Shown here: piece after piece, positions 28,633 to 38,579 of the stretch | How positions within the stretch are numbered: position 1 is the stretch's first letter | Layout of the letters: every line of letters begins with the position of its first letter | Source: Cellulomonas aerilata | GTDB taxonomy: Bacteria; Actinomycetota; Actinomycetes; Actinomycetales; Cellulomonadaceae | Assembly: GCF_007991755.1 (NCBI RefSeq) | Contig: NZ_BJYY01000002.1 | Location: 124,001 to 188,000 of the forward strand | Direction: 5' to 3' | DNA length: 64,000 bases | Notes under the pieces: model-generated | What the model saw: the letters and a program-made list of their open reading frames with translations, nothing else | What the model was told of the DNA's origin: nothing | Databases searched by the model: none | Translations under genes and position numbers: made by a program

Positions 28633-28671
28633 TAAATACCCTTGTGTGCGTCCTGGGAGCACCCCTACGGT
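28633..28671 (+). promoter_or_regulatory. whiB7 promoter with AT-rich upstream element
   Basis: A -35 box TTGTGT (28642-28647) and a -10 box TACGGT (28666-28671) are 18 bp apart. Directly upstream of the -35 box is taaata (28633-28638), a rare AT island in this GC-rich DNA. WhiB7 with its AT-hook is known to activate promoters, including its own, from an AT-rich element adjoining the -35 box, so autoregulation is likely. Confidence 0.65.
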
Positions 28672-28737
28672 GGACCCCGTCCCTGAGAGAGATCCGCGTC
28701 ACACGCGCGGAGCCGGTCACCGTGAGGAGGTGCCGTC

Positions 28738-28902
28738 ATGAACACCATGAACACCCACGTCGACGTCACCCGTCCGGCGACCCAGTCGCGCCGTCGGTAC
28801 ACGATCGCGCCCACCCCGGACGGTCTCCGGGGCGGAGCTGTGTCCATCGACGGCTTCCCGTTCGCCCGTGACCCCGCGTGTCCCTGGAACACGATGATCT
28901 GA
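28738..28902 (+). CDS. 54-codon upstream ORF in the whiB7 leader (leader peptide)
   Basis: ATG at 28738 follows a clear gaggagg site (28724-28730) and the frame stops with TGA at 28900-28902. The 54-residue peptide begins MNTMNTHVDVTRP, has a basic segment SRRRY and ends DPACPWNTMI. It lies about 60 nt downstream of the predicted whiB7 transcription start and immediately before a hairpin terminator. This matches the uORF-based attenuation described for whiB7/wblC genes, in which slowed translation of the uORF lets RNA polymerase pass the terminator. The peptide itself probably has no other role. Confidence 0.75.
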   Translation: MNTMNTHVDVTRPATQSRRRYTIAPTPDGLRGGAVSIDGFPFARDPACPWNTMI

Positions 28903-28914
28903 CAGCCGATCATC
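28893..28914 (+). promoter_or_regulatory. Small hairpin spanning the uORF stop codon
   Basis: gatgatc (28893-28899) pairs with gatcatc (28908-28914); the uORF TGA lies at the start of the loop. A ribosome at the end of the uORF would mask it, so it may take part in the leader switch. Confidence 0.45.
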
Positions 28915-28920
28915 ACGCCC

Positions 28921-28960
28921 AGGCCGCGGAGTCCCCACCAGGACCGCGGCCTTTCTCTTT
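28921..28960 (+). terminator. Attenuator terminator in the whiB7 leader
   Basis: aggccgcgg (28921-28929) pairs with ccgcggcct (28944-28952) and is followed by ttctcttt, the only T-rich run nearby. It lies 18 nt after the uORF stop and 88 nt before the whiB7 start, so it acts inside the transcription unit and not at its end. Confidence 0.75.
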
Positions 28961-28988
28961 GTCCCGAGCTCTCGGGATGGGGCCGCGG
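28944..28988 (+). promoter_or_regulatory. Candidate antiterminator pairing in the whiB7 leader
   Basis: The 3' arm of the terminator, ccgcggcc (28944-28951), can pair instead with ggccgcgg at 28981-28988. A nested hairpin tcccgag/ctcggga (28962-28977) would bring the two arms together. The two pairings exclude each other. Confidence 0.5.
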
Positions 28989-29047
28989 ATCCCACGCCGG
29001 ACCGCATCACCCATCGCGTAGGACAGCTCGGACACCAGGAGGACATC

Positions 29048-29401
29048 GTGCGGCGCAGCATGCTGCTCGAGAGCGTGAACCAGGGCGGGTCGGGACCCTG
29101 GCCGTCGGCGACCACCGTCGAGCTCGCGGACGACCGTCGGGACTTCGACCAGGTGGTGGCCGGACTCGTCCCGTGCCGGAACAACGACCCCGAGCTGTGG
29201 TTCGCCGAGCAGACCGCGCGGGTGGAGCGAGCCAAGGCGCTGTGCCGGGACTGCCCGCTGATCGCCTCCTGCCTCGCGGGGGCTCTCGAGCGCGAGGAGC
29301 CGTGGGGCGTCTGGGGCGGCGAGGTGTTCGTCGGCGGCACGGTCGTGGCGACCAAGCGGGGGCGGGGTCGTCCGCGCAAGGACGCCGCGGCGACCGCCTG
29401 A
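29048..29401 (+). CDS. whiB7: WhiB7 family antibiotic-resistance regulator
   Basis: The 117-aa protein has the four cluster-binding Cys at 43, 66, 69 and 75 (CRDCPLIASC), the GVWGG turn at 87-91 and an AT-hook RGRGRPRK at 104-111, the combination that identifies WhiB7. It binds a [4Fe-4S] cluster and sigma-A and activates intrinsic resistance genes upon ribosome-targeting antibiotics. AGGAGG at 29037-29042 fixes the GTG start at 29048. The 370-nt leader contains a uORF and terminator. The place next to uvrD2 equals Rv3197A. Confidence 0.95.
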   Translation: MRRSMLLESVNQGGSGPWPSATTVELADDRRDFDQVVAGLVPCRNNDPELWFAEQTARVERAKALCRDCPLIASCLAGALEREEPWGVWGGEVFVGGTVVATKRGRGRPRKDAAATA

Positions 29402-29477: not shown

Positions 29478-30572
29478 TCAGGACCCCGTCGGTCCGGCCG
29501 CCGGCCGGCCCACCCCCGCAGCCGGCAGGCCGGTGCACCCGCAGTCCGGGTGCACCGGCCACCGGCGCAGGCGCGGGACGACGTCGGGCAGGGCGATCTC
29601 CAGGCTCGCCGCGACGACCGCGGGAGGCCGGCCGTCGAGCTGGGCGAGCACGGCGGCGGCCGCCAGCCCTCCGCCGACGACGGCGAGCACGGACTCCTCG
29701 GCCACCGCGCGCTGCCGCGGCGACGCGGCGAGCTGAGCAGCGACGACCGGCCAGGCCGGGTCGGCCGCGGTCCGGTGCAGGTCCAGGCAGCGCAGGCACG
29801 GGGAGCTGCCGGGCCGGACCAGCGGGCCGACCAGGACGTCGCCCTCCCGGACGACCACCGACAGGTGGACGACCTCGGCGGCCATCATCGCCCGCGCGCG
29901 GGCCGCGTCGGCGACGGCGTGCTCCACGCTGACCACGACGTCGGGCCGGGTCCGCTCCGCCGCGGACGTGCGGACCTCCGGCACCAGGTCCCGCAGCAGA
30001 CGCGCGGCCGCCTCGGCCCGCGGTGAGCCGACGTCCCGGGCGCTGAGCCCCCCGGCGCCCAGGTCGCGGGTGGTGACCGGGGACGGGTCGTCGAGCAGCA
30101 CGGTGCCCACGCCCGCGGAGGCGAGCGTCGTCGCCGCGGTCAGCGCGAGCCGTCCGGCGCCGAGGAACCCCACCACCCGGTCTGCGCGGGCACGCACCAG
30201 CGCGCCGCCCCCGCCGTCGTGGTCGTCGAGGACCAGCGACCAGGCCGCGGCGTCGGCGAGCGCACCGGAGGGCAGCGGCGGGACGGAGGCGGCCGAGCGC
30301 TGCGGTGCGGCGTCGAGCACCAGGCCGGCCTGGCGGAGCAGGTCCACCACGGCGTCGCAGGGACGGCCGTCCTCGTCGACCCGTGCGGTCAGGCGCTCCA
30401 TGCGGGGCAGGACGCCACCGCCGTCGAGCGCCGTCAGGGCCCGCACCTCCGGCACCGTCAGACCGGTCAGCCGCACCGCCCAGCGCGGGTCGGTGCCGAT
30501 CTGCACCTCGTCGGTGGCGCGCCGCAGCACGCGCAGCCCGGGACGCAGCCGCACCGCCACCACCTCCAGCAC
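29478..30572 (-). CDS. ThiF/E1-like protein with zinc-binding Cys, cyclodehydratase-like
   Basis: The 364-aa protein has an N-terminal winged-helix-like part (about 1-120) and a Rossmann-like ThiF fold (about 125-330, VVGFLGAGRLALTAATTLA). CLRC (in SSPCLRCLDLHR) and a late CGC (HPDCGCTG) could provide zinc ligands, as in ThiF and cyclodehydratase partner proteins. Databases often call such proteins TOMM or bacteriocin cyclodehydratases, but no precursor peptide or YcaO gene is present here. The gene has a conserved place beside whiB7/uvrD2, which argues for a housekeeping role. The start is a GTG. Confidence 0.75.
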   Translation of the reverse strand: MLEVVAVRLRPGLRVLRRATDEVQIGTDPRWAVRLTGLTVPEVRALTALDGGGVLPRMERLTARVDEDGRPCDAVVDLLRQAGLVLDAAPQRSAASVPPLPSGALADAAAWSLVLDDHDGGGGALVRARADRVVGFLGAGRLALTAATTLASAGVGTVLLDDPSPVTTRDLGAGGLSARDVGSPRAEAAARLLRDLVPEVRTSAAERTRPDVVVSVEHAVADAARARAMMAAEVVHLSVVVREGDVLVGPLVRPGSSPCLRCLDLHRTAADPAWPVVAAQLAASPRQRAVAEESVLAVVGGGLAAAAVLAQLDGRPPAVVAASLEIALPDVVPRLRRWPVHPDCGCTGLPAAGVGRPAAGPTGS

Positions 30573-38505: not shown

Positions 38506-38579
38506 CGCGGGGTGGAGCAGCTCGGTAGCTCGCTGGGCTCATAACCCAGAGGTCGCAGGTTCAAATCCTGCCCCCGCTA
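38506..38579 (+). tRNA. Initiator tRNA-fMet (CAT)
   Basis: The 74-nt cloverleaf has acceptor cgcgggg/ccccgc with an unpaired first position (C1 x U72), anticodon CAT at 38540-38542, three consecutive G-C pairs in the anticodon stem (ctggg/cccag) and T-loop ttcaaat. The mismatched first pair and the GGG/CCC stem identify an initiator tRNA. The CCA end is not encoded. Confidence 0.95.

Follow-up and report, generated by a model that had tools for sequence, protein, structure and literature searches.

The window analysed here is a stretch of 64,000 nt within a genome of 4.06 Mb, which has Cellulomonas as its nearest named relatives when judged from WhiB7. At 29048–29401 on its forward strand lies a gene for a protein of 117 aa, with a GTG start and an AGGAGG upstream, and the leader under study precedes this gene. 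The product matched the Pfam family Whib (PF02467) with 61.8 bits and gave no match in an NCBIfam search. Searching the genome with this protein revealed five WhiB-like places, the best of which was 29048–29401. The best WhiB7 matches of genus mates were 69–77% identical, and those genus mates carry a like leader. Upstream lies a gene for a UvrD-like helicase containing an HRDC domain, and a uvrD-type helicase beside whiB7 is the known gene order. Pfam Whib is the family of all WhiB proteins, and the assignment of the downstream gene to WhiB7 rests on the identity to genus mates, on their like leaders and on this gene order. A ThiF-like protein, encoded at 29478–30572 on the reverse strand, adjoins whiB7 and has a match below cutoff (33.4 of 36.9 bits) to a TOMM leader-peptide-binding family.

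Upstream of whiB7, a promoter-like sequence, TTGTGT-N18-TACGGT, was identified at 28642–28671 (+) as a pattern recurring in relatives. Counted from it, the leader is about 370 nt long, as the original prediction had stated. A Shine-Dalgarno sequence, AGGAGGTG, at 28725–28732 (+) precedes a uORF of 54 codons (28738–28902, +; MNTMNT...ACPWNTMI), which was taken from the ORF listing and recurs in relatives; the predicted uORF and its good ribosome site are thus both present. The hairpin proposed over the uORF stop codon was borne out by the coordinates. Its sequence, GATGATC-TGACAGCC-GATCATC, occupies 28893–28914 (+), with arms at 28893–28899 and 28908–28914, and the TGA (28900–28902) opens the loop. 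Hairpins at the uORF stop were also seen, uncounted, in the folds of relatives. An intrinsic terminator stem-loop, AGGCCGCGGAGTCC...GGACCGCGGCCT, at 28921–28952 (+) begins 18 nt after the uORF stop and continues into a T-rich tail at 28952–28961 (+), in agreement with the prediction.

The AT-rich hexamer TAAATA at 28633–28638 (+) ends 3 nt before the −35 element. Passages of PMC7157823 describe WblC sites as GAAAWY located 3 nt upstream of −35. The hexamer in the window shares this position with the whiB7/wblC attenuators and fits a WblC/WhiB7 site in position and A/T-richness, but its letters differ from GAAAWY.

Neither the promoter nor the terminator of the whiB7 leader was listed by a sigma-70 consensus promoter scan and a simple terminator scan. 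Rfam at gathering scores left the leader unmatched, its sole match in the window being a tRNA at 38506–38579; a covariance model such as R1 (below) could therefore help to annotate such leaders. Folding of the leader was better than that of its dinucleotide shuffles (z −3.31), with 1 of 100 shuffles as good.

Conservation and spread of the leader

After 25 duplicates were dropped, 165 distinct whiB7 leaders were obtained, 130 of which, the window included, were counted as family. For the named loci L031–L072, L078 and L088, titles and duplicates served as the grounds for assuming family membership, and 80 of the places left without loci by the family search were taken as a subset. The terminator was located in 120 of the 130 family leaders; 119 were used, since a contig end cuts the leader of L206. 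Dropping 22 leaders that were at least 90% alike left 97 of the 119 in alignment A1. The uORFs were picked by rule, and L048, L054, L067 and L113 are among a few that may be in the wrong frame.

The comparison of relatives suggested by the original prediction showed that its main parts are kept. Besides the terminator, a uORF ending 8–26 nt before it was found in 109 of the 119 family leaders. The promoter pattern TTG[TA]NN-N16-19-TANNNT was matched in 72 of the 119, against 0.8 in shuffles, and not in the other 47. Its spacer is 18 nt in 70 of these 72, and 66 of these 70 promoters have 5 or 6 A/T in the hexamer at the offset of TAAATA. The layout of the window, which had been put forward as a variant, is the common arrangement among its relatives.

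The terminator sequence is strongly conserved among relatives as GGCCGCGGAGTCC-loop-GGANCCGCGGCC. In the 97 aligned leaders 99.6% of its pair cells are kept, and three of its eight pairs show double changes. RNAalifold on the leader alignment returned the terminator alone, as expected of two mutually exclusive states. The canonical terminator is missing in 10 of the 130 family leaders (L055, L056, L072, L174, L179, L182, L186, L190, L203 and L204). Other terminator-like stems are present in L072, L190, L203 and L204, and our scans showed no terminator-like stem in the remaining six; loss or replacement of the attenuator is possible in these ten leaders.

The covariance model R1 was built on the antiterminator state described below. 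In the genome containing the window it gave 69.6 bits at the whiB7 leader, and the other 18 listed matches, from 150 of 8334 candidates scored, reached at most 22.2 bits. The best of these others sits in an ORF that appears transporter-like by eye, and no WhiB7 was found near the weaker matches at the seven places examined. In the order sample, 164 of 297 genomes matched at E 0.01 or better, and the best-scoring 30 loci all adjoin a WhiB7 gene. At E 0.001, the model matched 34 of the 296 genomes of the phylum sample, with 29 new loci. Of these, 15 scored above 31 bits, and 13 of the 15 adjoin WhiB7; the other two, L261 (40.6 bits) and L266 (32.8 bits), are without WhiB7 and look like plain terminators by eye. 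The remaining 14 loci scored 28 bits or less, and none lies beside WhiB7.

The antiterminator and its covariation

The original prediction had named a downstream stretch, GGCCGCGG (28981–28988), as a competitor for the 3′ arm of the terminator. This stretch is present and exactly complementary to that arm, and the relative L057 has a like stretch. However, it is made only once the polymerase has passed the release point, and it therefore cannot prevent termination. Only 2 of the 119 family leaders (the window and L057) have a downstream stretch exactly complementary to the terminator 3′ arm, against 0.7 expected from shuffles, and copies of the terminator 5′ arm were found downstream in 1 of the 119. 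Furthermore, the minimum-energy fold of the leader forms the terminator, with GGCCGCGG paired elsewhere, and a covarying alternative exists upstream. We consider the downstream switch extremely unlikely and rejected GGCCGCGG as the antiterminator.

Our analysis points instead to a helix within the uORF. Its 5′ side consists of AT1, GACCCCGCG, at 28870–28878 (+), which covers the uORF codons Asp-Pro-Ala, and AT2, CCTGG, at 28883–28887 (+). Its 3′ side consists of AT2′, CCAGG, at 28919–28923 (+), and AT1′, CGCGGAGTC, at 28925–28933 (+), the latter inside the 5′ half of the terminator. The segment 28870–28887 would thus pair with 28919–28933, with one C.A mismatch between AT1 and its partner, and enclose the stop hairpin. 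In relatives, the stop hairpin is preceded by GACTCCGC or, closer to the stop, by GGACTCC, and this stretch complements the 5′ half of the terminator. Nascent-RNA folds up to the terminator loop, inspected for every second of the 119 leaders, often gave GACTCCGC..CCTGG [stop hairpin] CCAGG..GCGGAGTC or a very similar form. From these folds and the covariation given below, the antiterminator is likely to be this upstream helix, which would capture the 5′ arm of the terminator.

In nascent RNA of the 119 leaders, the mean probability that AT1′ pairs upstream was 0.94, compared with 0.69 in shuffles, and in 92 of them no more than 2 of 40 shuffles reached the leader's own value. The corresponding values for the window were 0.87 and 0.68, with 2 of 40 shuffles reaching the former. 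Over the 97 non-redundant leaders, 90.5% of the cells of the eight-pair antiterminator helix are paired, and the figure falls to 30–49% if the helix is slid by 1–3 columns. At least six of the eight pairs are kept in 82 leaders and fewer in 15. By eye, 12 of these 15 offer a different complementary stretch closer to the stop; the case of L057 is doubtful, and L070 and L201 are without an alternative stretch.

Double changes were observed in four of the eight pairs, in nine cells, which none of 500 shuffles equalled. Other covariation measures were weak, as the number of pairs with double changes was reached by 19 of 500 shuffles and the number of pair types by 125 of 500. A control helix slid by +3 also had four double-changed pairs, and more such cells (12 versus 9).

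The arms were further compared over 21 terminator-arm classes from 149 leaders, made up of the 119 of the family and 30 from outside it, some of which are recorded under the names Pseudonocardia, Rhodococcus and Streptosporangium. When each class was represented by a single leader, leaders carrying their own arms averaged −12.9 kcal/mol, compared with −10.9 ± 0.4 kcal/mol for permuted arms, and none of 2000 permutations was as low. The same swap gave 8 of 2000 as low within the family (11 classes) and 2 of 2000 outside it (11 classes). Among the 49 leaders with a non-consensus arm, their own arm was better than the consensus arm in 32 and worse in 10. This gain stems from outside the family (25 better and 2 worse of 30), and the test was neutral inside it (7 better and 8 worse of 19). 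Changed partner pairs include GACTCCAC/GTGGAGTC in L054, GACTCCGT/ACGGAGTC in L125, and TTCCGTGG/CCGCGGAA in 7 of 8 loci of one genus in the phylum sample. Relatives, in which the original prediction had suggested seeking compensatory base pairs, show covariation of the antiterminator helix across the 21 arm classes.

At the level of sequence, these comparisons establish the anatomy of the leader and the conservation and covariation of both alternative structures. If the terminator were simply constitutive and the uORF fortuitous, with whiB7 under the control of a different start site or of Rho-dependent events, such a covarying antiterminator would have no purpose. This reading also fits poorly with the promoter pattern that recurs upstream of the uORF in 72 of 119 leaders, and we regard it as very unlikely.

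The predicted switch and known attenuators

The leader is very probably a ribosome-controlled transcription attenuator of whiB7 with an upstream antiterminator. The original prediction of a switch controlled by the uORF, in which slowed ribosomes favour read-through, was therefore right about the kind of switch and wrong about the identity of the antiterminator. We infer the start site, the timing of events, the inducers and the autoregulation, as well as the role of the ribosome, for which the anatomy and the published mechanism are the basis. Transcription would start near 28678, and the uORF would be translated behind RNA polymerase. A ribosome reaching the uORF stop would melt the stop hairpin, cover AT2 and part the antiterminator arms, whereupon the terminator at 28921–28952 would form and transcription would end near 28960. 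If translation were slowed or blocked upstream, the last uORF codons would be free. AT1 and AT2 could then pair with CCAGG-CGCGGAGTC around the stop hairpin before the 3′ arm of the terminator is made, and polymerase would read through into whiB7, whose product may then boost its own promoter.

In the window the two states differ little in predicted energy, at −28.0 kcal/mol for the antiterminator and −30.6 kcal/mol for the terminator, both with the stop hairpin, a gap of 2.6. In an equilibrium model without a ribosome, the terminator still wins, with a mean P of 0.91 over 109 leaders. The ribosome was modelled with an assumed footprint of 15 nt either side of the P site. When placed on the stop codon, it lowered the mean antiterminator pairing from 0.95 to 0.84, with a drop of more than 0.3 in 16 of the 109 leaders. 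In the window it covers AT2 and the hairpin; antiterminator pairing falls from 0.87 to 0.63 and terminator pairing rises from 0.85 to 0.96. Because equilibrium favours the terminator and the effect of the ribosome is small, the switch must be kinetic, and the order of events must matter.

In the trp, his and ilvBNC leader-peptide attenuators, the choice between terminator and antiterminator is set by the position of the ribosome in a short ORF. The leader in the window shares this choice, but its uORF is without a long run of codons for a single amino acid, the longest being three Arg, and its signal appears to be translation to the end of the uORF rather than any particular codon. A uORF attenuator of whiB7/wblC has reportedly been described in mycobacteria and Streptomyces by Lee, Lee and Roe in 2022, Burian and Thompson in 2018 and Dinan in 2014.

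Passages of PMC10727445 indicate that stalled ribosomes lead to an anti-terminator formed from overlapping uORF and terminator sequences; parts of PMC11550727, PMC9618640 and PMC13393426 present a like mechanism, and mycobacterial leaders are treated in part of PMC4128351. As far as passages of PMC10727445, PMC4128351 and PMC11550727 describe them, these attenuators have in common with the window a leader of about 350–370 nt, a uORF with a good ribosome site and a terminator after the uORF. An antiterminator from overlapping uORF and terminator sequence is also shared, in the window by prediction and covariation. Compared with what these passages report, the peptide of the window differs, and the Cellulomonas-like members add a nucleotide-conserved element in the uORF. 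According to portions of PMC12421871, the Streptomyces ARE-ABCF leaders (are5sc, tiaA) likewise have a uORF, a premature terminator and an antiterminator; they differ in their very short uORFs, in stalling at the start codon and in the class of the gene, and their uORF ribosome sites overlap antiterminator hairpins.

Judged by comparison with relatives, the leader is well supported as a new addition to the whiB7/wblC uORF attenuators already published, and ordinary in kind. No description of Cellulomonas whiB7 leaders was found in the open-access literature, subscription papers lying outside the scope of the search. WhiB7/WblC controls intrinsic antibiotic tolerance in actinobacteria, as stated in parts of PMC11550727, PMC10727445 and PMC7157823. 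The covariation of the antiterminator helix over 21 arm classes, in several actinobacterial groups, suggests which bases make up the switch.

The uORF peptide and a second conserved element

The original prediction had singled out the peptide, with its end ACPWNTMI, as a notable variant. Its uORF codons for the end overlap elements of the RNA: in the window, CCC TGG overlaps AT2, and ATG ATC lies in the 5′ arm of the stop hairpin. From this overlap we infer that the ACPWNTMI ending is largely due to RNA pairing. In 22 close pairs of relatives, which share some members and do not include the uORF of the window, the uORF body, taken without the start and the last 10 codons, gave a dN/dS of 0.91, compared with 1.10 and 1.00 in out-of-frame controls. 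These results do not support the peptide itself as the notable variant.

These data also bear on an arrest peptide, that is, a specific nascent peptide ending in ACPWNTMI that would stall the ribosome with a drug, as in erm leaders. An amino-acid motif, LAPT...QG, recurs in the Cellulomonas-like group, and PDS.P...P[VI] ends recur in other leaders, as might be expected of such a peptide. However, conservation of the LAPT...QG region extends to silent positions, so that nucleotides rather than residues seem to be conserved; the ends that recur coincide in part with RNA pairing elements, and the uORF end of the window is unlike that of its nearest relative, L006. The conserved peptide under purifying selection that marks the erm type was not found here (dN/dS 0.91). 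With an end that overlaps pairing elements and a near-neutral body, an arrest peptide is unlikely and was rejected as the main reading. As the uORF residues seem mostly unselected, the leader is more in keeping with general sensing of translation than with an arrest peptide specific to one drug.

Cellulomonas-like uORFs hold a second conserved element, GCRCCCACC...CAGGGGnnnGCTSTG or a near form, which was found by pattern in 43 of 109 uORFs. L169 was dropped from this group, and L037, L067 and L113 from the distance statistic; in the 39 leaders left, the last base of the element is 92 ± 7 nt from the uORF start and 108 ± 36 nt from the stop. The element is kept at silent positions, GCT being 21 of the 22 Ala codons there, compared with 15% elsewhere in the uORFs. 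Likewise, GGG makes up 34 of its 44 Gly codons, against 125 of 616 elsewhere. Across 42 leaders, a test for pairing of the element with the antiterminator arm showed no covariation, the mean rank being 0.51, and no consistent hairpin was seen by eye at GGGnnnGCTSTG in 43 folded leaders.

In the window the element is GGCGGAGCTGTG at 28831–28842 (+), a candidate RNA polymerase pause site (G−11 G−10 T−3 Y−1 G+1) with +1 at 28842. Pause signals have G−11, T−3 and G−2 as further positions. The elemental pause signal given in a portion of PMC12288461 is G−10 Y−1 G+1, which the letters of the element fit. The 42 leaders chosen by the element match the pause pattern largely by construction. In leaders not chosen by it, GGN6TGYG occurs 1.5 times per kb, against 1.3 in uvrD2 flanks, and is hardly enriched, being present in 11 of 66 leaders where shuffles give 7.7. 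A looser form, GGN6TNYG, is twofold enriched in these leaders, at 5.2 per kb against 2.5, and is present in 43 of 66 against 18.4.

Since the selecting pattern nearly fixes these letters and the relatives are non-independent, a pause is offered here as a hypothesis only. The Cellulomonas-like uORF might carry a programmed RNA polymerase pause that holds the polymerase until a ribosome loads, a proposal to which we give clearly less than an even chance. If true, the switch would read the translation state of every transcript, and a built-in pause would extend the known mechanism in a way that can be tested. Alternatively, the element might be kept for slow decoding of GCT; leaders of the window's genus keep the G run and not the GGG codon, which argues mildly against this.

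The length of the uORF varies widely in relatives, with 50 codons in L006 and 97 in L124, and the uORFs of L033 and L034 were also remarked in this respect. The uORF of L059 contains an internal repeat, IGGSALAPIGGGALAPIGG.
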